Shown here one piece after another: positions 31,405 to 51,505 of a stretch of DNA of 64,000 nt. Source of the DNA: Catellatospora methionotrophica (GTDB lineage Bacteria > Actinomycetota > Actinomycetes > Mycobacteriales > Micromonosporaceae). Below the pieces are notes generated by a model. The model was not told the origin of the DNA and did no database searches. It worked only from the letters and a program-made list of their open reading frames with translations. A program made the position numbers and the translations under genes. The stretch's first letter is position 1. Every line of letters begins with the position of its first letter. The stretch covers positions 62,001-126,000 of the forward strand of contig NZ_JAAOTJ010000020.1 in NCBI RefSeq assembly GCF_011297335.1, in the 5' to 3' direction.

Positions 31405-31430
31405 TCCCCCCGGAACGGATCCGCCCGAGC

Positions 31431-32495: not shown

Positions 32496-32571
32496 GCCAT
32501 CAGTCAACCAGCAAACCGCCCACCCCGCGCCAATCCCCCCGTTTTCCCAGCCCCTTCTCACCTTTCGAGTC

Positions 32572-32627
32572 GATCATGAACTTGTGGGCACGGCTAGATG
32601 GCGTGTCGCGTCCAAAAGTTCATGATC
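32572..32627. repeat. 56-nt palindromic element, family B copy 1 (inverted)
   Basis: GATCATGAACTT ... AAAAGTTCATGATC, total 56 nt. The middle carries GCGTGTCGCG, the inverse of the CGACACGCCG seen in the copies at 33433 and 39677. It lies upstream of the ligase gene and downstream of the SDR gene. Confidence 0.85.
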
Positions 32628-32646
32628 GTCGGGGTGGGTCGTGCCA

Positions 32647-33375: not shown

Positions 33376-33432
33376 GCCTAGATCCCATCACCTCCATCGT
33401 GCTTGAGGTCAACCTTCCGCCCCCCGCTAGAC

Positions 33433-33487
33433 GATCATGAACTTAGGCCGGCGACACGCCGCCGAACCCGCCCATGAGTTCATGATC
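33433..33487. repeat. 55-nt palindromic element, family B copy 2
   Basis: GATCATGAACTT (33433-33444) to AGTTCATGATC (33477-33487), with CGACACGCCG in the middle. It is located between divergent genes (SDR and pectate lyase), so termination is not its obvious role. Confidence 0.85.
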
Positions 33488-33536
33488 AACGCGGACGGCG
33501 GACGGCGGGCTGCAACAAACCTGCACATCGATAACC

Positions 33537-33566
33537 TTGCATGCGTGGAAAGCGCTTTCCTATGCT
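33537..33566 (+). promoter_or_regulatory. Pectate lyase promoter with LacI-type operator in the spacer
   Basis: TTGCAT (33537-33542) and TATGCT (33561-33566) are separated by 18 bases. The spacer holds the perfect palindrome GGAAAGCGCTTTCC (33547-33560), the half-site style of LacI-family sugar repressors, with central CG. A repressor here would block polymerase directly. The ATG of the first pectate lyase is 70 bases downstream. Confidence 0.65.
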
Positions 33567-33635
33567 CGGAGGTCACGTCGGGTTTCGTCGATGTTTCAGG
33601 CGCTCGACGGCTCGATCTCGCGGAAGGGAAGGCGC

Positions 33636-35300: not shown

Positions 35301-35311
35301 GGGGGTACGCG

Positions 35312-36937
35312 ATGAGGACAGCACACCGGGCGTGGGTCGCCACGGCCGTGCTCGCCGCGACGGTGGCGTTCAGCGCCGTCGCGGTCGGCCGGGCCGACGC
35401 GGCGAACCTGTTCAGCGACGACTTCGCCGACGGCAACGCGAGCGGCTGGTCGACCTCGGGCGGCAGCTGGTCGGTGTCCGGTCAGGCCTACCGCCAGTCC
35501 GGCACCGGCGCGGACGCGAAAGCACAGGCGGGCTCCACCGCGTGGACCGACTACACGGTGCAGGCGCGGGTGCAGCCGACGGCATTCGGCAACAGCACCC
35601 GGGCCGCGGGTGTGCTCGCCCGCGCCCAGAACACGACCAACTTCTACGCCCTGGTGCTGACCGGCGCCGGCACGGCGCAACTGCGCCGCGTCTCCGGCGG
35701 CGGGGTGACGACCCTGGCCAGCGCGCCGGTGACGGTCACCACCGGCACCTGGTACACGCTCGCGCTGCGGGTCAGCGGGTCCCAGCTGTCCGGCGCGGTC
35801 AACGGCGCGACGCTGGTCAGCACCGCTGACGGCACATTCGCCAGCGGGCGGGTCGGGCTGACGGCGTCCTACGCGAGCGCGGCCTTCGACGACGTGACCG
35901 TCGACGGCGGGCCCGGCACCCCGCCGAGCCCGAGCACCAGCCCGATGCCGTCACCGAGCGCGTCCGCATCACCCGGTCCGAGCAGCAGCCCGAGCCCGAG
36001 CGCGTCGCCGTCGCGGCCGCCGAGCCCGTCGCCGAGCACCAGCCCCGGACCGGTGCCGCCGAACCAGGCCGACGGTTTCGCCAGCGTGAACGCGCTCGGC
36101 CAGAACGGCACGTACGGCGGTGTGGGCGGGCCGACGGTCGTCGTCGACACCACCGCCGAGCTGCTGGCCGCGATCGACACCATCGGGCCGATGGTCATCC
36201 AGGTGCAGGGGACGATCACCATCGACAGCAAGCGGGGCGTACGCCCGCACAAGACGATCATCGGGCTGGGCTCCAGCGCCGTCATCAACGGGGGCGGATT
36301 CGACTTCTACCGCTCGTACAACGTGATCGTCAGGAACTTGACCTTCACCAACGCCGAGGACGACGCGGTCAACGTGGGCCAGAACTCGCACCACGTCTGG
36401 ATCGACCACAACCGCTTCGTGGCCCCGGTCGACGGCTCGATCGACATCGTGCGGGGCGCGGAGTACGTCACCGTGTCCTGGAACCACTTCGACCACACCG
36501 ACAAGTCGATGCTGATCGGCCACTCCGACGGCAGCGCCAGCGAGGACGTCGGCCACCTCAAGGTGACCATCCATCACAACTTCTTCGACCACAGCCGCCA
36601 GCGCCACCCGCGCGTGCGCTGGGGCGACCCGGTGCACGTCTACAACAACTACTTTCTGGGCAACGAGCTGTACGGCGTCGCGTCGACGCAGGACGGCGGC
36701 GTGCTGCTGGAGGGCAACTATTTCCAGGACGTGCCGTTCCCGTGCTTCTCGGCCGGCGGCTACGCCGACAGCGGCCCCGGCCGCCTGGTTCAGCGCAACA
36801 ACATCTTCACAGCATCCGGCCCCTGCGAGGTCTCCGGAACCGTCGGCGACCCCGCCGCGTACTACCCGTACACCGTCGCGGCCCCCTCCACCGTTCCCGC
36901 GATAGTGACCGCCGGAGCAGGTGCGGGCCGCCTCTGA
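35312..36937 (+). CDS. Second secreted pectate lyase (PL1), paralogue of the preceding gene
   Basis: 541 residues from ATG 35312, preceded by GAGGGGG. Signal peptide ending in GRADA-A; N-terminal sandwich LFSDDFADGNASGWS (residues ~31-203), Pro/Ser linker (~203-251), PL1 domain (~252-541) with HHVWIDHNRF, LKVTIHHNFFDHSRQRHPRVRWGD and VYNNYF. Same domain order as its neighbour, clearly a tandem duplicate, but the catalytic domain has diverged, so substrate methylation preference may differ. Co-transcribed with it; a long hairpin follows. Confidence 0.9.
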   Translation: MRTAHRAWVATAVLAATVAFSAVAVGRADAANLFSDDFADGNASGWSTSGGSWSVSGQAYRQSGTGADAKAQAGSTAWTDYTVQARVQPTAFGNSTRAAGVLARAQNTTNFYALVLTGAGTAQLRRVSGGGVTTLASAPVTVTTGTWYTLALRVSGSQLSGAVNGATLVSTADGTFASGRVGLTASYASAAFDDVTVDGGPGTPPSPSTSPMPSPSASASPGPSSSPSPSASPSRPPSPSPSTSPGPVPPNQADGFASVNALGQNGTYGGVGGPTVVVDTTAELLAAIDTIGPMVIQVQGTITIDSKRGVRPHKTIIGLGSSAVINGGGFDFYRSYNVIVRNLTFTNAEDDAVNVGQNSHHVWIDHNRFVAPVDGSIDIVRGAEYVTVSWNHFDHTDKSMLIGHSDGSASEDVGHLKVTIHHNFFDHSRQRHPRVRWGDPVHVYNNYFLGNELYGVASTQDGGVLLEGNYFQDVPFPCFSAGGYADSGPGRLVQRNNIFTASGPCEVSGTVGDPAAYYPYTVAAPSTVPAIVTAGAGAGRL

Positions 36938-36963
36938 CCGGCGGGCCACTCCATCGACAGGAG

Positions 36964-37022
36964 GGTACGGCGGGCACGTCCAGCCAGGTGCGAGCCATGG
37001 TGGAGGACGTGCCCGCCGTACC
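36964..37022. terminator. Long hairpin after the pectate lyase pair
   Basis: Perfect 18-base arms (36964-36981 and 37005-37022), the left reading GGTACGGCGGGCACGTCC, around 23 bases. It lies between convergent genes. Confidence 0.75.
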
Positions 37023-37036
37023 GGCACTAGAGCTGG

Positions 37037-37249
37037 TCAGCGCTCCGGCGAGGGCCCGTCGTGGGGCCAGTCGGCGAAGTGGGCCAGCAGCTGGGCTCCA
37101 TGAACGCGGCGTTCACAGGGGTGGCTACGGCCGCAGTGACAGCAGCAGCCGCTGAGGTCTCGCCGATGTGCGGCCAGCAGGTGAGCGCCGTAGGCCGCTT
37201 GTGCTTCGGCGTAGCGGGTGAACTCCTGCTCCGGGATCGTTCTAACCAT
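37037..37249 (-). CDS. Small Cys-rich protein paired with the XRE-PLD gene (70 aa)
   Basis: ATG 37249; a further in-frame start lies at 37291 but the shorter one fits better. Text: MVRTIPEQEFTRYAEAQAAY, then GCCCHCGRSHPCERRVHG with five Cys in twelve positions, and AQLLAHFADWP. The Cys/His cluster suggests zinc. Small proteins of this sort are often next to HTH regulators in Micromonosporaceae. The gene is divergent from 37362 with about 110 bases between. Confidence 0.65.
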   Translation of the reverse strand: MVRTIPEQEFTRYAEAQAAYGAHLLAAHRRDLSGCCCHCGRSHPCERRVHGAQLLAHFADWPHDGPSPER

Positions 37250-37361
37250 GAGTCGATGTAACGCCTGCGGGCGGGGGCGTTGGCACCGCACCGAGGTTCC
37301 CTTCCTGGGATATTTAGTGGACTATGTAGATGCCCCTGAACGTTCCAAGGAATGGCCGTCC

Positions 37362-38096
37362 ATGGCGAACGAACGCCTCCGTGCTGTCATGCACTCGACC
37401 GGGATCACCACGCATCGGCTGGCTGCGGAACTCGGCGTGGACCCGAAGACCGTCGAACGCTGGGTCACCCGCGACACCGTTCCCCATCGGACGACAGCCT
37501 TCAACGCGGCGCGCCTGCTCGGCAGCCCCATGGCGTACGTCTGGCCCGCGCTCGCCAGCAGAGCGGCGGCACCCGAGAACGAGGTGATCGGCCTCTACCC
37601 GCACCGTCATCTCGTACCTCGATCACTGTGGTTCGACCTGCTCAAGAACGCACAGCGCGAGATCGTCGTGATGGCATACGCCAGCCTGTTCCTGCCCGAG
37701 GACAACCCCGAGTCGATACGGCTCCTGGCGGAGAAGGCGGAGTCCGGTGTGCGGGTCCGGCTCGCGCTGGGGGACCCGGACTCACCCGAGGTGGCGCGAC
37801 GCGGTGCCGAGGAGGGCTTGGGGGAGGCGCTGGCGGGCCGCGTGCGCATGGCAGTCGCCTACTACCGCCCCCTGCTGGACGTCGTCGCGGTCGACTTCCG
37901 CCTGCACCGCACGACGCTGTACAACTCCGTCTTCGTCTACGACGACGAGATGCTGGTCAACCAGCACGCCTACGGCGTGTACGGGTACCTGGCACCAATT
38001 CTGCACCTGCGCAGACACGGGGAAGACGGCCTCTTCGGCATGTATGCCGGATCCTTCGAACGTGTCTGGGAACGTGCCTACCCGTGCCCCCGATGA
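37362..38096 (+). CDS. XRE-type HTH protein with phospholipase D-like domain
   Basis: 244 residues from ATG 37362; an in-frame extension to 37218 reads implausibly. Residues 1-65 are the HTH (MANERLRAVMHSTGITTHRL, ELGVDPKTVERWVTRD). From about 85 a PLD-like fold follows: VPRSLWFDLLKNAQREIVVMAYASLFL, ESGVRVRLALGDPDS, and VYDDEMLVNQHAYG where an HKD motif would lie. The HKD Lys/Asp pattern is not complete, so catalysis is doubtful. The family is common in actinobacteria and its role is unknown. Confidence 0.75.
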   Translation: MANERLRAVMHSTGITTHRLAAELGVDPKTVERWVTRDTVPHRTTAFNAARLLGSPMAYVWPALASRAAAPENEVIGLYPHRHLVPRSLWFDLLKNAQREIVVMAYASLFLPEDNPESIRLLAEKAESGVRVRLALGDPDSPEVARRGAEEGLGEALAGRVRMAVAYYRPLLDVVAVDFRLHRTTLYNSVFVYDDEMLVNQHAYGVYGYLAPILHLRRHGEDGLFGMYAGSFERVWERAYPCPR

Positions 38097-38115
38097 CGAG
38101 TCGGTCTGGCCGCCG

Positions 38116-38826
38116 TCACGGGGACACCACGGTACGTACGAGTGCCGCGGTATCGCGCAGGTCGCGTAGCACGGTCTGCGCACCGGCGGCCCGCAACTCG
38201 GCCTCGCTGAATTTGCCCGTGCACACGCCGACCACCCTCGCCCCGCCGAGCCGACCGGCTTCGACATCGCGAGGTGTGTCCCCGATCAACACCGTGTCCT
38301 CGGAGCTGAACACCGTGCCGTACTTCCCGCTGGCCTTGCGCCTCGCGGCTGTGACCAGGTCGGCCCTGACTTCGCTGTCCTCGCCGTAGCCGCCGACCTC
38401 GAAGTCCAGGCCCGCCTCCAGACCGAACGCGGCAACCTTGGCGTACGCGTTGCGCGCGATGTTGCCGGTGAGCACCGACTGGACGACGCCCGGTGCCGCT
38501 GCGAGTGCCGCAATAGCCTGGCCTGCACCGGGCATGGCCCGTCCGCGCTCCCGCAATCGAGGAACGAGGGCTTCGAGAGCGGCTGCCATCACATCGGGGA
38601 GGGCAGCTCTCGGCTCATCGCTGAAGGCCAAGCCATGTCGCTCGAACAGCGTACGCATGATCGCCGGATCGGTCATGCCGTCGGTGACGACGGGCTGTGT
38701 GGAGGGGGCCCCGGTCAGAATCTCGAAGCCGCGCGCGTAGGCCTCCTTACTCACCCCGCCGTTATCGATCAGTGTGCCGTCCACGTCCCATAGGACGAAA
38801 ATACGAGTCTTCGCTGCGAGGCTCAT
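38116..38826 (-). CDS. HAD-superfamily phosphatase (phosphoglycolate phosphatase-like)
   Basis: 236 residues from ATG 38826. Motif I is LWDVDGTLIDNGG (nucleophile and acid Asp), helical cap at about 20-90, motif II VLTGNIARNAYAKVA, motif III Lys in the ADLVTAARRKAS region, motif IV VLIGDTPRDVEAG. Cytoplasmic phosphatase of the Gph type; the exact substrate is not readable. Convergent with the XRE-PLD gene. Confidence 0.88.
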   Translation of the reverse strand: MSLAAKTRIFVLWDVDGTLIDNGGVSKEAYARGFEILTGAPSTQPVVTDGMTDPAIMRTLFERHGLAFSDEPRAALPDVMAAALEALVPRLRERGRAMPGAGQAIAALAAAPGVVQSVLTGNIARNAYAKVAAFGLEAGLDFEVGGYGEDSEVRADLVTAARRKASGKYGTVFSSEDTVLIGDTPRDVEAGRLGGARVVGVCTGKFSEAELRAAGAQTVLRDLRDTAALVRTVVSP

Positions 38827-39094
38827 GCAAGCACCGTACGTACCGACAGCGAGAGCCGTCGCGTCGCAGGCGGTGACCTGTCTCCACGGTCCAGGTCCGA
38901 GTGGCCCATGCCCCCCGACCGGCGGTGGTGGCGGATGGCTCGGTGGGCCACGCTCAGTGACCGGGCCACTCGGAACGGGTAAGCCGGGCGGTGGCCGAAC
39001 AGTGCTCACCGGTCGTCGCGCGATGTCGACCGTCCAAAGCGGTCAGCCTACTCGCACGGTGATGGTGATCACGCATCGTGCTCAGAATGTCACG

Positions 39095-39652
39095 ATGAGG
39101 AAATCGCAGAAACCGCTGCTTCTGGTCGCCGCCCTCGGCGTGGCCGCGTTCGCCTTCTGTGGCGTCTGTAACGGCGTCAACTCCATGATCGGTGGGGGCG
39201 ACGACGAAGCAGCACCGGGCTCCCGCCCCGCTGCCGCTGTCGCACCGGGTGGGCCCACGCCGGGCGGGGTCGTTCCGTCCGCGTCGGCGGCCACACAGGT
39301 GACCACGCCCGCGCCGACCAAGGCGGCTCCTTCGCCCACGCCGGTTTATTTCGCCAGCTGCGACGCCGTACGCAAGGCGGGCAAGGCGCCACTGCGCAGA
39401 GGGCTGCCCGGCTACCGTGCGGCGCTGGATCGTGACGCCGACGGGGTGGCCTGCGAGCAGACCGAAGGTTCGACCGGTGGCCAGCCCAAGACTCAGCCGA
39501 AGGCCTCCCCCAAACCGAAGCCGCAGAACGACCCGCGCTACAGCACCTGCGCGAAGGCGAAGGCCGCGGGATACGGCCCGTACCGCAGGGGTGTCGACCC
39601 CGAGTACTCGTGGTATCGCGACGCTGACAGCGACGGAGTCGTCTGCGAGTAG
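39095..39652 (+). CDS. Membrane-anchored protein with two excalibur calcium-binding domains
   Basis: 185 residues from ATG 39095 (five-base GATGAGG region weakly spaced). N-terminal helix (LLLVAALGVAAFAFCGVC) as anchor or signal, Pro/Thr/Ala linker, then two excalibur repeats: YFASCDAVRKAGKAPLRRG...LDRDADGVACE at about 115-148 and YSTCAKAKAAGYGPYRRG...RDADSDGVVCE at the C-terminus. The DxDxDGxxCE motif binds calcium. Extracellular; function unknown. A 268-base gap upstream holds only an 11-bp inverted repeat (38897-38907 and 38963-38973). Confidence 0.88.
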   Translation: MRKSQKPLLLVAALGVAAFAFCGVCNGVNSMIGGGDDEAAPGSRPAAAVAPGGPTPGGVVPSASAATQVTTPAPTKAAPSPTPVYFASCDAVRKAGKAPLRRGLPGYRAALDRDADGVACEQTEGSTGGQPKTQPKASPKPKPQNDPRYSTCAKAKAAGYGPYRRGVDPEYSWYRDADSDGVVCE

Positions 39653-39676
39653 CGGCCGACAGTCCCTCCCGCCGTC

Positions 39677-39732
39677 GATCATGAAGTTACGGGTGCCGAC
39701 ACGCCGTCGAACACATCCATAAGTTCATGATC
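39677..39732. repeat. 56-nt palindromic element, family B copy 3
   Basis: GATCATGAAGTT to AAGTTCATGATC, 56 nt, with CGACACGCCGTCGAAC in the middle as in the copy at 33433. It lies between convergent genes here. Confidence 0.85.
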
Positions 39733-39750
39733 AACGCGGGGGGTGTCTGG

Positions 39751-40362
39751 TCAGCAGGGGGTGGTGTTGGTGGTCCGGGTTACGGGGATGGTGGCGAGCG
39801 GGGTCAGGGGCGGGTTGTCGACGGCGTACGGGGCACCGTCGTGCTTGCTGAACTCGACCACGGCCTGCACTGACATCGGCACGAAGAACAGCTCGAACTC
39901 CTTGCCCGCATCGCCGGGTGCACCGATCATCACCTTGTCGACCCGCCACGAGTCGCCGTCGAACTGGAGGAGCTTCTCCCAGAAGTACTTCGTGTCGCCC
40001 ACGTGCTTGATGAACAGCCCGACCTCCCGGCCCGCCGGTTTGGTGCCCTGCCCGGTGAGGTCGGCGCACTGCGGCACGGCAGCGGCGCTGGTCAGCGTGT
40101 AGGCGACCGGTGAGGGCGACGGCGGTGTGGCGGGTGCGGCGGCCGACTGCGGCGCGGAGGCGGTGGAAGTCGGTTTCGGGTCGGGCCGCAGCCGCTCCGC
40201 CAGCGGGGGTCCGACAGCGGCGATGACGGCGACGATGATGCCACCGAGGACGGTCCACTTGACCGCGGCCGGGACGCGGCCGTCTCGGGTGGGCTCCGGC
40301 GTTGGCGTGTTCTCCGGTTCAGGCATCCTTTGTGGATACCGCACACGGGCGAGGTGTGCCAT
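39751..40362 (-). CDS. Single-pass membrane protein of unknown function
   Basis: 203 residues from ATG 40362, or 191 from ATG 40326; neither start has a good Shine-Dalgarno. Acidic/Pro-rich cytoplasmic start (PEPENTPTPEPTRDG), one transmembrane helix (VKWTVLGGIIVAVIAAVG), a Pro/Ser/Thr linker, then an extracellular domain with AAVPQCADLTGQG and FELFFVPMSVQAVVEF. Looks like a surface-exposed beta domain; no family recognised. The gene upstream ends 22 bases before. Confidence 0.65.
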   Translation of the reverse strand: MAHLARVRYPQRMPEPENTPTPEPTRDGRVPAAVKWTVLGGIIVAVIAAVGPPLAERLRPDPKPTSTASAPQSAAAPATPPSPSPVAYTLTSAAAVPQCADLTGQGTKPAGREVGLFIKHVGDTKYFWEKLLQFDGDSWRVDKVMIGAPGDAGKEFELFFVPMSVQAVVEFSKHDGAPYAVDNPPLTPLATIPVTRTTNTTPC

Positions 40363-40384
40363 CGCCCGCGCGCGGTATATCGCG

Positions 40385-41011
40385 TCAGCGCAACGTCACT
40401 GCGGCCAGGACGGTCGGTGAGCCGCCGTCCCAGGAACCGGTGAGCACGGGTCCGTCACTGTCGGCGGATCCGAGCACCCGGTGTACGACCAGCTCGACAG
40501 TGCCGGTGATGATGCGGCCGGGGTCGCCGTCGGTGGTCTGCTCGATGGGGCCGACGGTCGGCACGGCGGTGCCGGGGGTGCCGCTGCCGCGCAGGGTCAT
40601 CGCGGGGGTGCGCTGCTCCTGGCCGTCGTCGCCGTCGACGAACTCCTCGGCCTCGCCGCCGCCGGTCAGGATCGCGGTGGCCAGCGCCTGCAGGTAGACG
40701 GGGTCGCCGGTGGCGTCGTACACCCAGCGCTTGCCGAGCACGGAGTGCTCGGTGGTGCCGACCAGCCACGGCTCGCCGCCGTCCAGCGGCGCGGCCCGGT
40801 AGGTGAGCGGGACGTGCAGGACGGGGCCGTCACCGGCCTGGACGAGCATCGTCTCGACGCCGACCTCGCCGTCGGGGTCGTCGAAGCGGCAGGCGGACAC
40901 CCGCCGCACGCCGGGCTCGGCCGGTCCCTGATACCAGGACCGGGTGGGCAGCCACGAGTCGATCAATTCGAGCTTGGTCGGTCGGATCTCCGCACGGTAC
41001 AGAAGCGCCAT
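40385..41011 (-). CDS. CG0192-type/maltokinase-N-like domain protein
   Basis: 208 residues from ATG 41011 (MALLYRAEIRPTKLELIDSW). The pattern PTKLELIDSWLPTRSWYQG, CRFDDPDGEVGVETML, and LTYRAAPLDGGEPWLVGTTEHSVLGKRWVYDATGDPVY is that of actinobacterial CG0192-related proteins that share the N-terminal cap of maltokinase. The function is not established; kinases of this kind have a further catalytic domain that is absent here. Possible operon with the next minus-strand gene. Confidence 0.82.
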   Translation of the reverse strand: MALLYRAEIRPTKLELIDSWLPTRSWYQGPAEPGVRRVSACRFDDPDGEVGVETMLVQAGDGPVLHVPLTYRAAPLDGGEPWLVGTTEHSVLGKRWVYDATGDPVYLQALATAILTGGGEAEEFVDGDDGQEQRTPAMTLRGSGTPGTAVPTVGPIEQTTDGDPGRIITGTVELVVHRVLGSADSDGPVLTGSWDGGSPTVLAAVTLR

Positions 41012-41145
41012 GTCCGGCATGGTAGACGCCGGTCGGGACGCCCCAGCGGGGCCGCCGCGGTGCGGTAGCACGCGTCACCGCCCAAACGCGGCGAAGATCG
41101 GCGAAGCGAACTCCGGGCGTACGCTCGGGGCGTAGTTTCGGACGG

Positions 41146-42882
41146 GTGGCCACCCTGCTGACGGTGAGCGTGGGCCTGCCCAAGGACGTCGACTGGCGCG
41201 GGCGGACCGTGTACACCGGTGTGTGGAAGCAGCCCGTGGACGGCCCGGTGCTGCTGCGCCGCCTCAACCTCGACGGCGACGGCCAGGGCGACCTGGGCGG
41301 GCACGGCGGTGAGCAGCGCGCCGTGCTGGTGTACCAGCAGGACTCCTACCGCTACTGGCAGGAGGTGCTGGGCCGGGACGACCTGGTGCCGGGCCAGTTC
41401 GGGGAGAACTTCACCGTCGACGGGCTGCCCGACGACGAGGTGTGCATCGGTGACCGCTACCGCGTCGGCGAGGCCGTCGTCGAGGTGACCCAGCCTCGGG
41501 TGACCTGCTATCGGGTCGGGATGCGGATGAACGAGCCGCGTATGGCGGCGCTGATGGTCGCCCACCACCGGCCGGGTTTCTACCTGCGGGTGCTGACCGA
41601 GGGGCTGGTGCGGGCCGGGGACGAGTTCGTGAAACTGTCGACCGGGCCCGAGGCGATGACGGTCGCGGAGATCGACGCCCTGCTGTACCTGCCGGGCCAC
41701 TCCCGTGACGACGCCGCGCGGGCGCTGCGTATACCGGCGCTCAGCCCGGGCTGGCAGACCTCCATGCAGGGGCTGCTGGAGCAGGCCGGTGGGCAGGAGG
41801 GCAACGCGGGTCTGGAGACGGCGGCCGCCCCGCCCGCGTGGGCCGGGTTCCGGCCGCTGACCGTGACCGCGCTCGACGAGGAGACCAGCGACGTCTTCTC
41901 GCTGCACCTGGCCGCCGCCGACGGGACCCCGCTGCCGGCCGCGCTGCCCGGCCAGTTCCTGACGGTGCGGCTGCCCGGTCCGGCCGGGCCGATCATCCGC
42001 AGCTACTCGCTGTCGGGCACGCCCGGCGACGCGGTGTACCGGATCAGCGTGAAGCAGGAGCCGCACGGCGCGGCGGGCACGTATCTGCGCGCCAACGCCC
42101 GGCCCGGCCTGACCGTGGACGCGGCCGCGCCGCGCGGCTCGTTCACGCTGGACACCGGCGAGCAGCCGGTGCTGCTGCTGTCGGCCGGGATCGGGGCGAC
42201 GCCGGTGATGGCGATGCTGCACGCCCTCGCCGCGACGCAGCCGGAGCGCACGGTGTGGTGGGTGCACGGCGCGCGGGACGCCGCCGAGCATGCCTTCGCT
42301 GTGGAGAGCCGCGAGCTGCTGAGACGGCTGCCGAACGCGCACGCGTACATCTGTTACAGCCGCCCCGGCCCCGAGGACCGCGATTTCGACAGCACGGGAC
42401 GGATCACGCCGGACGTGCTGCGCGCGCTGAACCTGCCCCCGGACACGGCCGCCTACCTGTGCGGCCCGACGGCGTTCATGAGCGAGATCACGGCCGCGCT
42501 CGGCGAACTGGGGCTGGGCGCAACGCAGGTGCACAGCGAGCTGTTCGGCGCGCAGGGCGGCCTGACCCCCGGCATCGCGGCCGCGCCCGCCCCGCCGCCG
42601 CATGCGCCGGACGGCACACCGGGCACGGGTCCGGCGGTGTCGTTCGTCCGCAGCGGGCTGACCGTGCCGTGGAGTCCGGCGTACGCCAGCCTGCTGGAGT
42701 TCGCCGAGGCGTGTGATGTGCCGGTGCGCTGGTCCTGCCGGACAGGGGTGTGTCACACCTGCGTGAGCGGTCTGCTGTCCGGCCAGGTGGCGTACTCGCC
42801 CGAGCCGGTCGAGGAGCCCGGCGACGGGAACCTGCTGATCTGCTGCTCCGAGCCGACCTCGGAGCTGGCCCTGGACCTGTGA
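41146..42882 (+). CDS. MOSC-FNR-2Fe-2S ferredoxin fusion oxidoreductase
   Basis: 578 residues from GTG 41146. Residues 1-165: MOSC domain (GDGQGDLGGHGGEQRAVLVY, GQFGENFTVDGL, Cys in PRVTCYRVGM). Residues ~235-460: ferredoxin reductase-like FAD/NAD domain (RSYSLSGTP for FAD, LLSAGIGATPVMAMLHAL and YLCGPTAFM for NAD). Residues ~485-578: plant-type ferredoxin with C-x4-C-x2-C (WSCRTGVCHTCVSG) and the fourth Cys in LICCSEP. Related to YiiM/CBS-type reductases that transfer electrons to Moco-using or reductive detoxification partners (e.g. N-hydroxylated purines). Start of a monocistronic unit; a family A palindrome follows. Confidence 0.9.
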   Translation: MATLLTVSVGLPKDVDWRGRTVYTGVWKQPVDGPVLLRRLNLDGDGQGDLGGHGGEQRAVLVYQQDSYRYWQEVLGRDDLVPGQFGENFTVDGLPDDEVCIGDRYRVGEAVVEVTQPRVTCYRVGMRMNEPRMAALMVAHHRPGFYLRVLTEGLVRAGDEFVKLSTGPEAMTVAEIDALLYLPGHSRDDAARALRIPALSPGWQTSMQGLLEQAGGQEGNAGLETAAAPPAWAGFRPLTVTALDEETSDVFSLHLAAADGTPLPAALPGQFLTVRLPGPAGPIIRSYSLSGTPGDAVYRISVKQEPHGAAGTYLRANARPGLTVDAAAPRGSFTLDTGEQPVLLLSAGIGATPVMAMLHALAATQPERTVWWVHGARDAAEHAFAVESRELLRRLPNAHAYICYSRPGPEDRDFDSTGRITPDVLRALNLPPDTAAYLCGPTAFMSEITAALGELGLGATQVHSELFGAQGGLTPGIAAAPAPPPHAPDGTPGTGPAVSFVRSGLTVPWSPAYASLLEFAEACDVPVRWSCRTGVCHTCVSGLLSGQVAYSPEPVEEPGDGNLLICCSEPTSELALDL

Positions 42883-42924
42883 CGGGTCGCCGCTGGCGGC
42901 CGTGAGGGCCGTTGTCCCGCTGTT

Positions 42925-42985
42925 GATCGCTGTTTCGGGTCAGAAACGGTGGTTGGAGCGCAGATCATGACACGAAACAGCGATC
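42925..42985. repeat. 61-nt palindromic element, family A copy 2
   Basis: GATCGCTGTTTCGGGTCA at the left and TGACACGAAACAGCGATC at the right (17 of 18 positions pair). Exactly 61 nt. Between convergent genes. Confidence 0.88.
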
Positions 42986-43020
42986 ATGCCTGGGTGCTCC
43001 GGGCGGCCTGCTGGCGTGCA

Positions 43021-43920
43021 TCAGAACGTCTTGAAGCTGCGGATCGGCATGCGGGGGCCGTATTTCGGGGCGCCGATGCCGGAGGACTCGATGAGGTGGC
43101 AGACCCGGCCGCGGTGGCCGGCGAACGGGGCGAGCAGCTCCAGCATCCGGGCGTCGGTGCCGCGCGGCTCCCCGGCCAGGGCGTAGCAGACGAAGTTCGG
43201 CAGGTGGAAGTCGCCGACGCTGACCGCGTCGGGGTCGCCGAACACCACGGCGGCCGTCTCGGCGGCGGTCCACGGGCCGATGCCGCGGATGGTGAGCAGG
43301 TGCGCGGTCAGGGCCGCGCTGTCGGGGCGGCGTTCGAGCCGCCCGGCCTGGGCGGCGACCCGGCGCAGGGTGTCGGCCCGCCGCTGCTCCAGCCCCAGTG
43401 GATGGAACTCGTAGTACTGGGCGCCCGCGATGACCTCCGGGTCCGGGGGCAGCCACAGGTTGTCGACCGGGCCGGGGGCCTTGCCGCCGAACCTGCGGAC
43501 GATGGCCGCGTACGCGCGGTAGGCCTCGGTGCCGGTGACCTTCTGCTCGCACACCGCGCGCAGCAGCCGGGGCCAGGCCAGGCCGGTCGCGGGCAGGCGC
43601 AGTCCGGCGAACTCGCGGGCCAGCCGGGCGACCAGCGGATGGGCCCTGGCCAGCGCGGCGAACCCGGTGACGTCGTCGCGCAGCCCGGCGATGGCCTCGG
43701 CGCGTTCGGCCAGCCAGCCCGCGCCCGCCCCGTACGCCTCGATGTGCAGGAAGCCGCCTGCCGAGCGCAGGGCGAGACTGCCCGGACCCTCGGGTGTCCG
43801 GGCAGCCAGCCAGTAGACGCCGTCGACCCAGCGTGAGCAGGGGTCGTGGCGACCGAGGCTGAGCTGCGCGAGCGTACCGGCGATGTCGTATCGCTCAGGC
43901 AGCTCGTGTCGCTCGGTCAC
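43021..43920 (-). CDS. AlkA-type DNA-3-methyladenine glycosylase (HhH-GPD)
   Basis: 299 residues from GTG 43920. C-terminal half is the HhH-GPD fold: LLRAVCEQKVTGTEAYRAY (HhH first helices), LLTIRGIGPWTAAETAAVVFGDPDAVSVGDFHLPN, with the catalytic Asp in VGDFHLP and the hairpin GIGPW. N-terminal half (SLGRHDPCSRWVDGVYWLA) is the AlkA-like beta domain. Removes alkylated purines, base excision repair. Adjacent to the LPMO gene, no shared operon beyond 19 bases. Confidence 0.88.
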   Translation of the reverse strand: MTERHELPERYDIAGTLAQLSLGRHDPCSRWVDGVYWLAARTPEGPGSLALRSAGGFLHIEAYGAGAGWLAERAEAIAGLRDDVTGFAALARAHPLVARLAREFAGLRLPATGLAWPRLLRAVCEQKVTGTEAYRAYAAIVRRFGGKAPGPVDNLWLPPDPEVIAGAQYYEFHPLGLEQRRADTLRRVAAQAGRLERRPDSAALTAHLLTIRGIGPWTAAETAAVVFGDPDAVSVGDFHLPNFVCYALAGEPRGTDARMLELLAPFAGHRGRVCHLIESSGIGAPKYGPRMPIRSFKTF

Positions 43921-44980: not shown

Positions 44981-45940
44981 TTACGCGACGGCGGACTGCC
45001 CCCGCTGGGCGGCCAGGGCCAGCGAGCGGTGCAGGAGTTTGCCGTCGCCGAGCAGGTGGCGCAACTTCTTCTCCAGGCCCGCGATCGGGACCAGGTTCTG
45101 CGGGGCGCGGGGGTCCTTGTAGGGCAGCGAGGCGAAGCGGGGGATCGTCGCCGTCGACAGCTCGGCCAGCGCGACGGCCTGGTGTTCGGGCAGTTCGGCC
45201 GAGCACTCGACACGCACGATGCCCGCCCAGGGCGAGCTGCCGCCGTGCGGCAGGCGCAGATACCAGGTGAGCCGCTCGTAGACGCCCGCGATCCGGAAGA
45301 CCGGGGTGCGCTGCGCGGGCTTCAGCGCGGCGACCACGCTGATCAGGCGGTCGGGCAGGTACTGCTTCTGCTGGGTCTTGATGTAGCCCAGGGTGCGCGG
45401 CAGCGCGTCGCGGCTGCGCAGCGGCCCGTCCACGATCAGCAGATCGCCGTCCTCCCGCAACTGCCGGGACACCTCGATCTCCAGCTCGGTCAGCGCCCGC
45501 TGCACGCCGTTGGACAGGTCGCCCTCCTCCGCGCCGATGATGGTCTCCGCGCGGTAGCGGGCGGCCTGCCCGGCGTTCACGTCGGCGGGGCGCTCGGCGG
45601 CGGTGAACAGGGTGCGCTCGACCTTCACGCCGGTGACGCTGGCCCCGGACGAGCGCTCGCAGCGCACCACCCCGGCCGCGTACGAGCAGGCCAGACCGGG
45701 GCGGGTGACCCCGTCGTGGTCCTCGATCCAGAGCCGGGCGTCGGTGCGGCGTACGCCGTCGACGAGCAGCACCACGTCCGGGGCGCGTACGCCCGGCGGG
45801 GTGTCCAGGGGTCGCCAGTCCGCCGCCAGCAGCTCGATCTCGGCGTCGAGCTTGGCGCTGCTGGCCTCGGCGGGCCCCCGGTCCGCGCCGTCGAGGCTGG
45901 CGCCGAAGCCGGGATCCCAGGCGTCCACATGGAACTTCAT
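44981..45940 (-). CDS. nurA: NurA-domain nuclease, last gene of the herA-sbcD-sbcC-nurA operon
   Basis: 319 residues from ATG 45940. NurA-like features: first acidic site VVLLVDGVRRTD (Asp61), second DLLIVDGPLRSRD (Asp171) followed by LPRTLGYIKTQQKQYLP, and a C-terminal RFASLPYKDPRAPQNLVPIAGLEKKLRHLLGD which matches the closing part of the family. NurA is an RNase H-like nuclease with 5'-3' exo and ssDNA endo activity that is driven by the HerA ring. It starts 23 bases after the SbcC stop. The assignment is by eye and by operon context; residues should be checked with a profile. Confidence 0.75.
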   Translation of the reverse strand: MKFHVDAWDPGFGASLDGADRGPAEASSAKLDAEIELLAADWRPLDTPPGVRAPDVVLLVDGVRRTDARLWIEDHDGVTRPGLACSYAAGVVRCERSSGASVTGVKVERTLFTAAERPADVNAGQAARYRAETIIGAEEGDLSNGVQRALTELEIEVSRQLREDGDLLIVDGPLRSRDALPRTLGYIKTQQKQYLPDRLISVVAALKPAQRTPVFRIAGVYERLTWYLRLPHGGSSPWAGIVRVECSAELPEHQAVALAELSTATIPRFASLPYKDPRAPQNLVPIAGLEKKLRHLLGDGKLLHRSLALAAQRGQSAVA

Positions 45941-45963
45941 GAGATCTGTCTACCAGCTCTCGT

Positions 45964-48441
45964 CTATCCGACCCGCTCCACGCGGGCCGTACGGGCGTCC
46001 TTGCTGATCTCGAAGCGGACCGGGATGCGTTCAGCCAGCGCCTGCACGTGCGTCACCACGCCGACCATGCGATCACCCGTCGCCGCAAGGTTCTCCAGCG
46101 TAGCGGCGACCGTGTCCAGGGTGGACGCGTCCAATGTGCCGAAGCCCTCGTCGAGCATGATGGACTCCAGGCTCGCCGTCGGCGACAGGCCGCCGAGCTG
46201 GTCGGCCAGCGCCAGCGCGAGCGCCAGCGAGGCCTGGAACGTCTCGCCGCCCGACAGGGTGCGCACGGTGCGGCGCAGCCCGGCGTCGTGGTGGTCGACC
46301 ACGAAGAACTCGCGGTCCTCGTGGATGAGGTCGTACTGCCCGCCGGACAGCTCGCGCAGGATCGCCGACGCGCCGTCCACGAGGGCGTCCAGCGCCTCCT
46401 GCAGCAGCCACGCCTCGAAGTTGTTGGCCCGCAGGTGGGTGGCCAGCGCCGTGGCCACCTGCCGGTCGGTCTCGACCACGGCCCGCTGCGCCCGCAGCGT
46501 CTCGGCCTGCGCGCGCCGCTCCAGCAGCGTGTCCCGGGCGGCGGCCATGCGCTCCACGGTCACCGCGGCGGCCCGCTGGTGCTCCCCGGCACCCGGCCGG
46601 GGCAGCGCGGCTGCCGCGAACATCTCGTCGAGGCGGTGCACCAGCGCGGTCGCGTGCTCGCGGGCCTGGGCCAGCCGCCCCCGCTCGCCGTCACGGGCGG
46701 TCTGCGCGGCGGCGGCCTGCTCGCGGGCCCAGCCGTCCAGGGCGCGCCACGCGGCCGCGAGGTCGTCGCGGTCGGCGGCGGGCGGGACCAGCGCGGTCAC
46801 CGTGTCGCGGGCCGCGTCGAACGAGCGCCAGCCCGCCGCCAGCCGGTCCTGGGCCTGCTGGGCGAACCCGGCGGCCTGCCGTTGCGCCTCCCGCGCGGCC
46901 CGCAGTGCCGTGGTCGCCATGGCCAGTTCGCGGCGCAGCGCCTCGGCGGCGGTGAGCTGTTCGCGCAGCTTCGGCACCGGGGCGGCGCCGTGCAGCACCC
47001 GGGCGACCTCGGCGGCCCGCACCCCGAGGGCCTCACGCTGCGTGGACGCCCGCGCGTGCCGCACGCTCGCCTCGTTGACCTTGCGGTCGAGCTGCTCGCG
47101 CGCGGCACGGGTGGTGGTCACCGTCTGCTCGGCCTGCTCGACGACCTTCTTCGCGGCGGTCATCGCGGGCTGGTCGGGCATCGGTGGCACGGTCGCCACG
47201 TGCTGCGTGCAGACCGGGCAGGCGTGCCCCGCCTTCAGGTCCCGGCGCAGCCAGGCGGCCCGGTCGGAGGTCTGCGCGGCCTGCAGCGCCTGCTGCGCGT
47301 CGGTCAGCGCCCGCTCGGCCTGCGTCTGGCGGGCCACGGCGGTCTGCTGCGCGCCGAGCGCGGAGTCGTGCAGCTGCTGCGCCTGCGACGCGGCCGCGTC
47401 GAGTTCGGACAGCTGGGTGGCCAGCCGCGAGTTCTCGGCGTGCGCCTCCAGCAGCCCGCGCAGCACCGTCGGGTCGGCGGCTGCCTCCAGCTGGGCGCGC
47501 ACCTTCTCCTCGGACTCCTCGGCGGTGCCGACCGCGATCGCGGCGTCGGCCGCGGCGGCCGCCGCGGCACGGGCCGTCTGCGCCAGCGTGGTCACCCCGG
47601 CGGGCGCGGCGACCGCGGTGAGCACGCGCAGCCGCTGCTCGGCGGCGGTCGCCTCGGCGCTGACCTGCTCGACCCTGCGCTGGGCCTCGGCCAGCTCCGG
47701 CAGCGCGGCGTCGACGTCGGCGGCCAGCGCGCGGGCCTGCTCCAGCCGCTGCTCGGCGGCCTCGATCGCCTCGTCGGAGGCGGCGGCGGTCAGCTCGTTG
47801 AGCACCGGCTCGGTCGCGGCGAGCTTCGCGTTGGCCTCGCCGACCAGCGTGGCGGCCTTCTCCCGGATCTTCTCGTACACGTCCAGGCCCAGCAGCCGGA
47901 CCAGGATCTCCTGCCGCTCGGCGGGCCGCGCGTGCAGGAACGCCGCGAACTCGCCCTGCGGCAGCACCACACACTTGATGAACTGGTCGTACGGCAGCCC
48001 GACCACGTCGGCAACAGCGTGGTCCAGTTCGCTCGGCGTGCCCGCCAGGGCCTCGCCCAGCTCGTCGAGCAGGTCGTCGCCGTCCAGCGTGGACGCGTCG
48101 AAGCCCGGCGTGAGCGCCTGCAGCCCGGCGGCCCGGGTCGCGGCGCGACCCTTGCCGTCCCGGCGCACCACCCGCGTCGCCGCGTACCGGGTGCCGCCCG
48201 CCTCGAAGATGAGCCGGACCGCGGCTTCGGTGGCCGACGGCGCGAGCGCGTGCGCGACGCTGCGGCCGCCGCCCCAGCGCGGCGCGGTCCCGTAGAGCGC
48301 GAAACAGATCGCGTCCAGCAGCGTCGACTTTCCCGAACCGGTCGGCCCGACCAGGGCGAAGAAGTCGCAGTCGGTCAGGTCGACCGTGGTCGGCTCCCGG
48401 AACACGGTGAACCCGCGCAGGTCCAGTCGCAGCGGCCTCAT
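45964..48441 (-). CDS. sbcC: SbcC/Rad50-type SMC-like ATPase
   Basis: 825 residues from ATG 48441, overlapping the sbcD stop by four bases (ATGA). Walker A GPTGSGKST (32-40), a long coiled coil broken by a Rad50 zinc hook CPVC at 408-411 (in HACPVCTQHV), second coiled coil, signature LSGGETFQASLALALALADQL, Walker B SIMLDEGFGTLD, and the switch His in VVTHVQALAERI. With SbcD it forms the end-processing SbcCD complex. Shorter than E. coli SbcC (~1050), typical of actinobacteria. Confidence 0.95.
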   Translation of the reverse strand: MRPLRLDLRGFTVFREPTTVDLTDCDFFALVGPTGSGKSTLLDAICFALYGTAPRWGGGRSVAHALAPSATEAAVRLIFEAGGTRYAATRVVRRDGKGRAATRAAGLQALTPGFDASTLDGDDLLDELGEALAGTPSELDHAVADVVGLPYDQFIKCVVLPQGEFAAFLHARPAERQEILVRLLGLDVYEKIREKAATLVGEANAKLAATEPVLNELTAAASDEAIEAAEQRLEQARALAADVDAALPELAEAQRRVEQVSAEATAAEQRLRVLTAVAAPAGVTTLAQTARAAAAAAADAAIAVGTAEESEEKVRAQLEAAADPTVLRGLLEAHAENSRLATQLSELDAAASQAQQLHDSALGAQQTAVARQTQAERALTDAQQALQAAQTSDRAAWLRRDLKAGHACPVCTQHVATVPPMPDQPAMTAAKKVVEQAEQTVTTTRAAREQLDRKVNEASVRHARASTQREALGVRAAEVARVLHGAAPVPKLREQLTAAEALRRELAMATTALRAAREAQRQAAGFAQQAQDRLAAGWRSFDAARDTVTALVPPAADRDDLAAAWRALDGWAREQAAAAQTARDGERGRLAQAREHATALVHRLDEMFAAAALPRPGAGEHQRAAAVTVERMAAARDTLLERRAQAETLRAQRAVVETDRQVATALATHLRANNFEAWLLQEALDALVDGASAILRELSGGQYDLIHEDREFFVVDHHDAGLRRTVRTLSGGETFQASLALALALADQLGGLSPTASLESIMLDEGFGTLDASTLDTVAATLENLAATGDRMVGVVTHVQALAERIPVRFEISKDARTARVERVG

Positions 48442-49601
48442 CCGGCCACCTCCGTGTAGAGGCGGTCGAACAGGTTCTTCGTCGCGGTGTCCTCGTGGCC
48501 CCGGTGGGTCAGGTAGTCCGAGAACAGCTCCGGCGCGCTGCGCCCTGAGCGCTGCGGGCGGGCCGCGCGGGTCGCCGCGTCGGGCAGCATCGACGGGTCC
48601 ACCCGGATCTCCAGGGCGCGCGGATACAGCTCCTGCACCTGCTCTCGCAGTCCGGCGCGGGGCGCCTCGGCGACGTACACCCGCAGCCAGGCGTCGTCCT
48701 CGCCCTGCGCCTCGGCCTGCGCGGCCAGCTCCTCCAGGGTGCCGCGCAGCGTACGCAGCGGCGTGACCGTCGGCAGTTCCACCGTGCGCGCCTGCGCCGA
48801 GGTCTGTGCGGTCACCTCGACCATGGTCACGCTGGGCCGGTTCTCCTGCTCGCCGAAGTCGACCGCGATAGGGGAGCCGCTGTAGCGGATCGGGCACGCG
48901 CCCGGCAGCAGTTGTGCCCGGTGCAGGTGGCCCAGCGCCACGTAGTGGGCGTTGCTCGGGAACACCGACGACGGCACGGCGTAGCCGAGGATGCAGTGCG
49001 CGTCGCGCTCGCCGCCGCCCATCGTGCCGCCGACCACGGTCAGGTGCGCGGTGAGCAGGTTGACCGTCTTCGGGTCGGCGAACGCCTGCTCGGCCAGCCG
49101 CGCCATCAGCCGCGCCAGGTGATCGGCGTACGTGGCCTGCGCCTCCGCCTCGGTCAGGTCGAACATCTCCAGCGCGCGCACCGCGTACCGCTGGGACAGG
49201 AACGGCAGCGCGACGCAGCGCCACGCCTCGCCGTCCTTCGTCGTGCCGGAGACGATGTGGTCGGCCGGATTGTCGCTGACCCGGCCGCGCAGGATGATGC
49301 CCGCCGCGTCGGCCCAGGCGCGCAGCGCGTCCAGCGCCGCCCCGTTGTCGTGGTTGCCCGCGATGGCCAGCACCTGCGCCCCGGTGGCCCGCAGCGCGCT
49401 CAGCGCCCGGGTCACGATCTTCGTGGCCTCCGGCGACGGGGCGGCCACGTCGAACAGGTCCCCGGCGACGATGATCAGGTCGGGCTGCTCGGCCTGGGCG
49501 ATCTGGACGACCGCGTGCAGCGCGGCGATCTGCTCCCCGGTGCGGGAGCGGCCTTTGAGCACCTTGCCGACGTGCCAGTCGGAGGTGTGCAGAATCCGCA
49601 T
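48438..49601 (-). CDS. sbcD: SbcD/Mre11-type nuclease
   Basis: 387 residues from ATG 49601 with AAGGA ten bases upstream. Phosphoesterase motifs: TSDWHVGK (residues 6-13), VAGDLFDVAAPS, AIAGNHDNGAALDALR, LLTAHLTVVGG and YVALGHLHRAQ, all binding two Mn ions. C-terminal cap includes the dimer and SbcC-binding part. Cleaves hairpins and protein-blocked ends with SbcC. Confidence 0.95.
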   Translation of the reverse strand: MRILHTSDWHVGKVLKGRSRTGEQIAALHAVVQIAQAEQPDLIIVAGDLFDVAAPSPEATKIVTRALSALRATGAQVLAIAGNHDNGAALDALRAWADAAGIILRGRVSDNPADHIVSGTTKDGEAWRCVALPFLSQRYAVRALEMFDLTEAEAQATYADHLARLMARLAEQAFADPKTVNLLTAHLTVVGGTMGGGERDAHCILGYAVPSSVFPSNAHYVALGHLHRAQLLPGACPIRYSGSPIAVDFGEQENRPSVTMVEVTAQTSAQARTVELPTVTPLRTLRGTLEELAAQAEAQGEDDAWLRVYVAEAPRAGLREQVQELYPRALEIRVDPSMLPDAATRAARPQRSGRSAPELFSDYLTHRGHEDTATKNLFDRLYTEVAG

Positions 49602-49632
49602 CGTCAGTCCTTAAACTCGCTGCTCGGGGGAC

Positions 49633-51384
49633 TCAGAAGGGGATCTCGTCGTCGGCCATGCCGTTGCGCGAACCGGAGCCGACGACGGCGAACGGGTCGG
49701 TGGCGCTGACCATGCTGGCCAGCGTCGCCCGCGGCGCGGGGCCCGCCTCGCTGGGCCGGGTCGCCCAGGCCGGGAACGGGAACTCCACGGCCAGCGGCAC
49801 CGGGATCTCCGGCTGGCCCACGAACATGGTGCCCGGCTTGGCCAGCAGCACCCGCTGGCGCTGCGCGGGGGGCAGGAAGCCGTACTCCGGGCGGCCCGCC
49901 TCGGCCGGGTCCAGGCGGCCGACGACCCGGATCGCCGAGTTGGCGACGATGCGCCGCTCGACCTCGGACGCGGTCTGCTGCGCCCCGATCAGCACGACGC
50001 CCAGCGAGCGGCCGCGCTCGGCGATGTCGAGCAGCACGTCCTTGATCGGGCTGGACCCGTCGCGGGGCGCGTACTTGTTCAGCTCGTCGAGGACCACGAA
50101 CAGCAGCGGCTTGGGTGAACCCGCCTTCTCCTTGCGCTCGAACTCGGTCTTCAGCGTCACGCCGACCACGAAACGCTGCGCGCGGTCCGGCAGGTTGTGC
50201 AGGTCGACCACGGTGACCTGCGCACTTTCGGCGGTGGAGATGCTGTGCGCCCGGCGTTCGGGCAGGTCGCCGCGGACCAGCCGGGCCAGGTCGCGCTTGC
50301 TGTTGATCAGCCGCCGGGCGAACGCGTTGATGGTGCCGATGCCGACCGAGCTGCCGGACCAGGTGCCCCGGGTGTCCTCGTCGTTGAGCTGCTCGACCAG
50401 GTGGTCGACGAGCTGCTCGTAGCTGTTGATCCGGAAGCCGTCGAGGGTGATGCCGCCGTCGGTGGGCACCGCGTTCTTGGCCAGCTGCGCGGTGACCGAG
50501 TGCACCACCATCGTGTACTGCTGGCGTTCGTCGTCGGCGTCGGCGAACACGTACGGCAGCAGCCGGTCGGAGCAGAACTGCGCCAGCGTCCAGTAGAACG
50601 GGTCCACGCCGGTCAGGCGGCTGGCCACGTCGGGGCTGCCCGTCGGGTCCCCGGCCCGCGCCGGAGCGAACACGCTGACCTGCGGGAACGGCGCGGCCTC
50701 CAGGCCGAGCTTGTGATACTGCGCGCGGGTGCGCTCGTCCAGGCGGGTGTTCTGGTGGTCCAGGAACAGCAGGTCCTCGCCCTTGACGTTGAAGATCAGC
50801 GCCTTGGTGTTGACCGCGTCGCCGCCGAACACCCCGGACCGGAACACGGAGTAGAGCAGGAAGGTCGCGAAGCTGGTCTTCGTCGCGACGCCCGAGATGC
50901 CCGAGATGGACACGTGCGCGCCGCGGCTGCCGTCGAGGAAGTCGGCGTTGAGGTAGACCGGCTGGCCGTCGCGGCCGGTGCCGATCGGCAGGCGGCGCTG
51001 CATGCGGTCGAACGACAGCGCGCTGTCGCGCGACGCGCCCTGGGCCCGGAACGCGACCGCGCCCGGCAGCGGCGGCACGTACACCTCCGGCTCGACGCGG
51101 GTCACCGTGACCTCGGCCGCCTCCTGCACCTGCGCGGGCAGCATGCCCTCGGCGATGGCGAACACGTCGGAGTCGAAGCTCGCGCCCTCGTGGCGCGCCC
51201 GCACGCTGGTCACCACCCCGGCGATGGTGACCATGCCGATGTCGGGCAGTGGCCGCTGGGTCACCACGACGTCGTCCAGTTGCAGGTACGACCCCTCGGC
51301 GACCGCGACCCAGAAGGTCAGCGGACTCGCGTCCTCGGTGCCCAGCACCCGCCCGACCGGCGTACCCGGCTGCTCCTCGCTCAC
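49633..51384 (-). CDS. herA: HerA-type hexameric DNA translocase, first gene of the operon
   Basis: 583 residues from GTG 51384 (AGGG upstream); the ORF extends farther but the upstream text is low complexity. Residues 8-100 are the HAS-barrel (PVGRVLGTEDASPLTFWVAV) that defines HerA. The P-loop is ISGISGVATKTS (160-171), an unusual Walker A where A-T-K-T replaces G-x-G-K-T; Walker B is PLLFVVLDELNKYAP; then SLGVVLIGAQQTASEVERRIVANSAIRVVGRLDP, the sensor and arginine finger region. HerA pumps DNA and drives NurA in end resection. 31 bases separate its stop and the SbcD start. Confidence 0.88.
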   Translation of the reverse strand: MSEEQPGTPVGRVLGTEDASPLTFWVAVAEGSYLQLDDVVVTQRPLPDIGMVTIAGVVTSVRARHEGASFDSDVFAIAEGMLPAQVQEAAEVTVTRVEPEVYVPPLPGAVAFRAQGASRDSALSFDRMQRRLPIGTGRDGQPVYLNADFLDGSRGAHVSISGISGVATKTSFATFLLYSVFRSGVFGGDAVNTKALIFNVKGEDLLFLDHQNTRLDERTRAQYHKLGLEAAPFPQVSVFAPARAGDPTGSPDVASRLTGVDPFYWTLAQFCSDRLLPYVFADADDERQQYTMVVHSVTAQLAKNAVPTDGGITLDGFRINSYEQLVDHLVEQLNDEDTRGTWSGSSVGIGTINAFARRLINSKRDLARLVRGDLPERRAHSISTAESAQVTVVDLHNLPDRAQRFVVGVTLKTEFERKEKAGSPKPLLFVVLDELNKYAPRDGSSPIKDVLLDIAERGRSLGVVLIGAQQTASEVERRIVANSAIRVVGRLDPAEAGRPEYGFLPPAQRQRVLLAKPGTMFVGQPEIPVPLAVEFPFPAWATRPSEAGPAPRATLASMVSATDPFAVVGSGSRNGMADDEIPF

Positions 51385-51505
51385 CCGCAGAACCCTAGCG
51401 GCCCCCAGCGACAAACCCACCGCTCCGACGCCCCCACAGTGACCAGCCCCCCTCCCCGTGTCGCCTCCCCGACACCCCGTCGCCCGCGCGTCCCCCTCCA
51501 GCCGA

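Follow-up and report, generated by a model that had tools for sequence, protein, structure and literature searches.

A herA-sbcD-sbcC-nurA operon with a Deinococcus-type HerA-NurA pair in Catellatospora methionotrophica and across the Micromonosporaceae

Results and discussion

Genes and proteins of the operon

The window, meaning the whole 64,000-nucleotide stretch of Catellatospora methionotrophica DNA that was analysed, carries on its minus strand four consecutive open reading frames in the order herA-sbcD-sbcC-nurA (44981-51384), which is where a preliminary description of this DNA, made from the letters alone, had placed four tightly packed genes. herA (49633-51384, GTG start) encodes a Deinococcus-type HAS-barrel/FtsK-HerA hexameric translocase with 583 residues, sbcD (48438-49601) an Mre11-type nuclease of 387 residues, sbcC (45964-48441) a Rad50-type SMC ATPase of 825 residues, and nurA (44981-45940) an RNase H-fold nuclease of the bacterial NurA type with 319 residues. 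Gaps of 31 bp and 23 bp separate herA from sbcD and sbcC from nurA, and sbcD and sbcC share 4 bp, the ATGA overlap that had already been pointed out. A longer herA starting at the GTG at 52035 was ruled out because the extension crosses the RibD_C gene and the homologues align from residues 1-12.

HerA matches the Deinococcus radiodurans protein DrHerA (PDB 7f6d_B, phmmer E=1.3e-144) over nearly the whole length, and the protein is 99% identical to the HerA of three named Catellatospora species. The Pfam search gave no family for it at E<=1, and its NCBIfam scores are below the cut-offs (9.9 bits against 970 for helicase_HerA, 15.2 against 850 for HerA_antiphage_2). Key residues of HerA and NurA were tested or seen in structures by Yang et al. 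(PMC9960219), and the likeness to the D. radiodurans complex (PDB 7f6d, 7wrw, 7wrx) includes the P-loop and the catalytic and pore residues of HerA. Nine functional positions (K169, T170, K201, D204, D433, E434, R441, R459 and R498) correspond to K175, T176, K217, D220, D487, E488, R495, R513 and R552 of DrHerA and are kept in 117-120 of the 120 HerA rows; they comprise the K/T pair of Walker A, the ASCE (additional strand, catalytic E) acid D204, D433/E434 of Walker B, the trans arginine and the pore arginines (R459, R441, R498). The interface acid D78 of DrHerA is retained in all 120 rows. The P-loop ISGISGVATKTS was confirmed and has identical letters in D. radiodurans HerA, and ISG[IV]SGVATKT[ST] was read in 115 of the 124 HerA matches from 120 relative loci (four of the other nine are fragments of one broken gene). 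It had been described as atypical; the loop is real, but it is the usual one for HerA of the Deinococcus type, which also rules out reading it as novel.

Regarding NurA, the score against the Pfam family (PF09376) is 19.7 bits, under the curated cut-off of 21, and 9 of the 34 homologues aligned here match this family at E<=0.01. On the other hand, a PDB profile match reaches E=3.7e-55 and the predicted fold is that of an RNase H-like NurA, with a strong structural match to such proteins, those of Deinococcus and Thermotoga being the nearest. The preliminary description would have given up the NurA assignment if both a profile hit and a fold match were missing; the Pfam profile stays below its threshold and the fold matches well, and in our judgement the PDB profile match and the predicted fold outweigh the Pfam score. 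Its proposed acidic sites, Asp61 and Asp171, proved invariant in the 34 homologues. D61, K188 and R278, also invariant as a trio, are the equivalents of D53, K201 and R309 of DrNurA, whose chain numbering was set by us with an offset of 20 from D53. W8, which would belong to an N-terminal pin motif, is nearly invariant, but residues 13-21 have a predicted local distance difference test score (pLDDT) <50 and the structural alignments begin at residue 12-15.

SbcD scores 179.4 bits against TIGR00619 sbcd (cut-off 77.65), matches the Pfam families Metallophos and SbcD_C and presents the motifs DWH, GDLFD, GNHD and LGHLH. SbcC is above the cut-offs of Pfam AAA_23 and SbcC_Walker_B and, at 253.6 bits, under that of TIGR00618 (478.5); it carries the P-loop GPTGSGKS at 32, the zinc hook CPVC at 408, the LSGGE signature at 729 and the Walker B motif LDEGF at 763. 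Judged by their sequences, both proteins make up an SbcCD (Rad50-Mre11) pair of a phosphoesterase and an ATPase with a zinc hook. In D. radiodurans the same fold and the same catalytic NurA residues are found, but in C. methionotrophica sbcD and sbcC sit between herA and nurA.

Conservation of the operon

HerA was found in 149 of the 150 Micromonosporaceae genomes sampled, the sole miss being an 86% complete genome in 690 contigs, and the four-gene set is part of the core genome of this family. Among the best 80 loci of 505 named relatives, 67 present the order herA-sbcD-sbcC-nurA, and in each of the remaining 13 (12 with the first three genes and one with herA alone) the contig ends 15-2912 bases after herA. 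The 55 family loci with full flanks also share neighbours: RibD_C in 53, a sugar-binding protein in 49 and an HhH-GPD glycosylase in 43. The conserved neighbourhood in related genomes, for which the preliminary description had proposed a survey, is therefore present.

Outside Micromonosporaceae the distribution of HerA is patchy. At the order level, strong HerA matches were obtained in 38 of 200 genomes, 29 from this family and 9 from others, once 36 weak ones had been dropped from the 74 matches. At the phylum level HerA is found in 45 of 149 genomes (with our own cut at 65 bits, which dropped 8 of 53 matches, FtsK-like and with <=24 bits) and NurA also in 45, with both present in 44. The one genome with HerA and without NurA has a contig that stops at the locus, and the one with NurA and without HerA shows a weak match with three stops.

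These data bear on the possibility that the operon is an anti-phage or anti-plasmid defence, in which HerA-NurA would shred DNA entering the cell with the help of SbcCD; HerA acts in this way together with Sir2 or DUF4297 partners. Such near-universal presence in a conserved neighbourhood is unlike defence islands, and none of the 34 NurA homologues matched PADLOC at E<=0.1; on these counts neither a defence-island context nor a recognised defence nuclease partner was found. Moreover, structural Z-scores are far higher for the Deinococcus and Thermotoga NurA proteins, and the promoter of herA, described below, resembles that of recA. Defence is considered quite improbable.

Promoter and possible PafBC control

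Upstream of herA, on the same strand, the element TTGTCG-N11-TAGGGT (51392-51414) ends 7 nucleotides before the GTG, and recA of the same genome has TTGTCG-N11-TAGCGT 6 nucleotides before its own GTG. The RecA-NDp consensus is reportedly TTGTCRGTG-N8-TANNNT (said to be from Gamulin, 2004), and the herA element has one mismatch to it; this element resembles both a RecA-NDp/PafBC promoter and the genome's own recA promoter. The RecA-NDp promoter is bound by PafBC (PMC8223512, PMC6789036). A PafC protein (HTH_PafC, 148 bits) is encoded beside the genes for the Pup ligase and the proteasome, together with an adjoining WYL protein that is presumably PafB. No LexA box of the form GAAC-N4-6-GTTC was found upstream of herA, where there is one loose GAA-N4-8-TTC at about -210.

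An initial pattern with a fixed G gave nine sites against three in its reversed control, missed recA and retrieved few named repair genes; one gene downstream of a site (L200), taken by eye for a uracil-DNA glycosylase, was dropped for lack of a Pfam match. This pattern was replaced by the relaxed TTGTCR-N11-TANSGT, which has 10 sites in the 8.39-Mb genome, herA and recA among them, and one in the reversed control. Two of the remaining motif genes are without a match in Pfam; the others encode a glyoxalase-like protein, a SWIM protein, a mycothiol transferase (DinB superfamily), an ABC ATPase and a DUF4230 protein. One site lacks a start nearby. In one genome of the same order (G398) this pattern occurs 38 times, compared with 2-13 times in the other 15 genomes scanned, and many of these sites have the classical GTG after TTGTCG, so G398 possibly has a much larger RecA-NDp regulon.

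Concerning the relatives, a scan of 12 loci for RecA-NDp found a site with <=2 mismatches near the herA start in 11, and it was missing in Rhizocola. A weight matrix was also built from 56 of 150 pattern matches, taken as predicted sites from seven genomes (G160, G177, G000, G195, G158, G225 and G206), with the herA site excluded. The matches of nine genomes were left out (G190, G165, G228, G151, G152, G159, G308, G365 and G398), among which reversed-pattern controls were high in G190, G165, G228 and G152 and zero in G308, G365 and G398. Scoring covered 73 of the 80 family loci (seven with short flanks were dropped) and about 27,000-43,000 positions per locus. The best site upstream of herA ranked in the top 5 of its locus in 44/73 cases and in the top 20 in 67/73, with a median rank of 4, whereas eight control genes of the same loci reached the top 5 in 1/493 cases and the top 20 in 15/493; these counts come from related loci and hence are not independent.

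A recA-like promoter suggests a damage response. It also touches on the idea that the operon serves replication, with SbcCD and HerA-NurA cleaning hairpins or stalled forks in high-GC DNA and not resecting breaks for recombination. SbcCD does act on hairpins. DrNurA, for its part, nicks the single-stranded loops of hairpin DNA (PMC9960219), and herA and nurA mutants of D. radiodurans are described as proliferation-defective yet radioresistant (PMC5448004). The promoter argues for a response to damage instead, though fork damage would induce it too, and a function confined to replication seems unlikely.

Gene order and history

Beyond the family, 40 stretches from 39 Actinomycetota genomes were inspected (9 from the same order and, out of 44 further genomes of the phylum with HerA, 30). 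The order herA-sbcD-sbcC-nurA appears in 13 of them and nurA-herA-sbcD-sbcC in 18, so full linkage holds in 31/40 in either of two orders; the other nine are partial, several being cut by contig ends. The 13 nurA-last stretches include one with herA in pieces and some with 1-3 kb gaps after herA. In locus L180, herA is spread over several frames and pieces, whereas nurA, sbcC and sbcD each have an open frame, as in a decaying gene or with sequencing errors. Two loci of one genus have HerA alone in the stretch and NurA 15-19 kb away, which means that the cassette is split there by insertion or rearrangement; in another locus sbcD is about 5 kb off, and a further one has HerA with no SbcD in 6.8 kb of downstream sequence.

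A HerA tree of 47 rows, 41 of them labelled by gene order, was rooted at its midpoint. The order label changes only once, with a support of 91/92, below the program's star; this holds in 90% of 200 bootstrap trees, and 0/500 shuffles gave a number as low. All of the outer rows, which have long branches, are nurA-first. This pattern suggests that the nurA-last order was a single change within Actinomycetota and that nurA-first would be ancestral, a direction that depends on the midpoint rooting. It agrees with Oceanithermus profundus, whose nurA-hepA-sbcD-sbcC cluster (PMC5448004) has the same four families in the nurA-first arrangement, while nurA is last in C. methionotrophica.

Transfer also happens, as one family (f7) holds both gene orders, another (f13) falls on two branches of the HerA tree and one genome (G146) has the complete four-gene cassette twice. 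Its second copy is very divergent, with a HerA 31% identical to that of C. methionotrophica and the P-loop GIAGAGTKS, and would fit a second version acquired by transfer.

The order in C. methionotrophica resembles the archaeal one, which we take to be herA-mre11-rad50-nurA. In Sulfolobus islandicus, as here, four homologous genes form one operon, herA-mre11-rad50-nurA, and one figure legend lists them in the order of C. methionotrophica (PMC4351679). The archaeal operon is UV-induced (PMC5448004, PMC8708640). The preliminary description had seen a complete archaeal-style set; the set and its identities stand, but not the archaeal style, since sequence, P-loop and predicted fold are nearest to Deinococcus and Thermotoga and the order fits a single change within Actinomycetota on the HerA tree. 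In that case the likeness to the archaeal order would be convergent.

Relation to AdnAB

The C. methionotrophica genome also encodes an AdnAB-like pair, with a UvrD helicase and a PDDEXK domain in each protein, as well as Ku, a LigD-polymerase and LigC. AdnAB is an ATP-driven motor with a nuclease for DNA ends and belongs to families unrelated to HerA-NurA; this genome has both systems. In Mycobacterium smegmatis, AdnAB is under PafBC control (PMC8223512). At the phylum level, an AdnA-type protein was found in 27 of the 45 HerA-bearing genomes and in 22 of the 104 HerA-lacking ones, counted by hand at our own threshold of at least 175 bits with the second gene of the pair as query. With AdnA-type proteins in 27/45, the notion that HerA-NurA substitutes for RecBCD or AdnAB was rejected as a general rule. 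PMC9960219 calls the HerA-NurA complex limited to a few bacteria lacking RecBCD and describes Deinococcus-Thermus bacteria as devoid of RecBCD/AddAB; C. methionotrophica, in contrast, has the AdnAB-like pair.

Surroundings of the operon

The closest flanking genes encode a lytic polysaccharide monooxygenase (LPMO)/chitin-binding protein, an HhH-GPD DNA glycosylase (43021-43920, on the strand of nurA and shortly downstream of it), a RibD_C protein and a K+ channel. An LPMO gene beside the operon was seen in 6 of the 55 full-flank family loci. The surroundings had been characterised as non-homologous end joining (NHEJ) genes, and this did not hold: LigC (31431-32561, minus strand) and the LigD-polymerase (8747-9778, plus strand), both of the NHEJ set, are 12.4 kb and 35 kb away. 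Of the 55 loci, 12 have LigC no more than 10 kb away and none has LigD-polymerase, so these genes are not adjacent to the operon. The roughly 21 kb from the LigD-polymerase to LigC hold a tyrosine integrase immediately after the former (9834-10766), a long open reading frame that is tape-measure-like by eye (16763-19189) and an FtsK/SpoIIIE-like gene (22758-24803); this region, next to the gene for the NHEJ polymerase, is probably an integrated element.

A probable DNA end-processing system alongside AdnAB

The gene identities, the predicted NurA fold, the catalytic residues, the linkage, the co-occurrence of HerA and NurA, the core-genome status and the promoter, all read from sequences or models, point to a chromosomal and stably kept DNA end-processing system, in which a HerA-NurA pair of the Deinococcus type is linked to SbcCD and works beside AdnAB. 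A probability of about 0.7 is given to this explanation. From the promoter sequence, DNA damage would activate PafBC and raise transcription of the four genes together from one promoter before herA, along with recA. By family, SbcCD would open blocked, hairpin or protein-bound ends and hand them over; as in the biochemistry of D. radiodurans, the HerA hexamer would thread duplex DNA into the NurA dimer, which would cut the 5' strand and leave a 3' tail for RecA. The system would act alongside AdnAB and not in its place. That SbcCD starts and HerA-NurA resects had been proposed at the outset; the linked set behind the proposal is there, whereas resection itself is conjectural and has been doubted for archaeal HerA-NurA (PMC12977600). 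In D. radiodurans, herA and nurA mutants show intermolecular recombination reduced 10-fold (PMC5448004), which supports the end-processing function.

Several observations weigh against it. In HerA, R154 of DrHerA is replaced by D, as in 108/120 rows, and two of the three interface acids are lost (F stands for E80 and A for D81); the HerA-NurA interface outside Deinococcus is reported to align poorly (PMC9960219). Concerning regulation, of 16 genomes searched in the family and order, only C. methionotrophica and G228 have the strict TTGTCR-N11-TANSGT element at herA, a weaker form being seen elsewhere in the family, and the motif-bearing genes other than herA and recA are not clearly repair genes. 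The Micromonospora loci match RecA-NDp poorly and conserve, further upstream, a different element with similar spacing and CAGGAT as -10; in some of them the top matrix site differs from this element. Coexistence with AdnAB is not universal, as 18/45 HerA-bearing genomes have no AdnA-type protein at >=175 bits. Finally, D. radiodurans herA and nurA mutants show modest or even improved resistance to damage (PMC9960219), and HerA-NurA of Thermococcus kodakarensis cuts both strands, with the authors of that 2026 paper doubting a resection role (PMC12977600).

A more specific proposal, which we regard as tentative and slightly short of an even chance, is that Micromonosporaceae have a second, damage-inducible end-resection machine, SbcCD with HerA-NurA, switched on by PafBC with recA and standing beside AdnAB. 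The cassette would be anciently bacterial and nurA-first, with a nurA-last form that arose once in Actinomycetota and is convergent with the archaeal order, and Deinococcus and Thermus would have lost the link to SbcCD.

Actinobacterial homologues have already been published, as has one four-gene cluster from a bacterium, that of Oceanithermus (PMC5448004). Among the papers searched, none brought together NurA, HerA and Micromonospora, or AdnAB and NurA with DNA end resection and Actinobacteria. Nor was any mention found there of the near-universality of the set in Micromonosporaceae, a recA-like promoter, its coexistence with AdnAB or a single change of gene order; a 2004 FtsK-HerA survey may already list actinobacterial clusters.

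The studies of bacterial HerA-NurA that were found deal with Deinococcus and Thermus, in which the phenotypes of knock-outs are modest or confusing. A complete four-gene set in the core genome of a large culturable family, together with an AdnAB-like pair and a recA-like promoter in C. methionotrophica, makes it possible to ask, by means of clean single and double mutants, whether HerA-NurA serves resection, defence or another purpose. The DNA damage response of actinobacteria would thereby gain a pathway.

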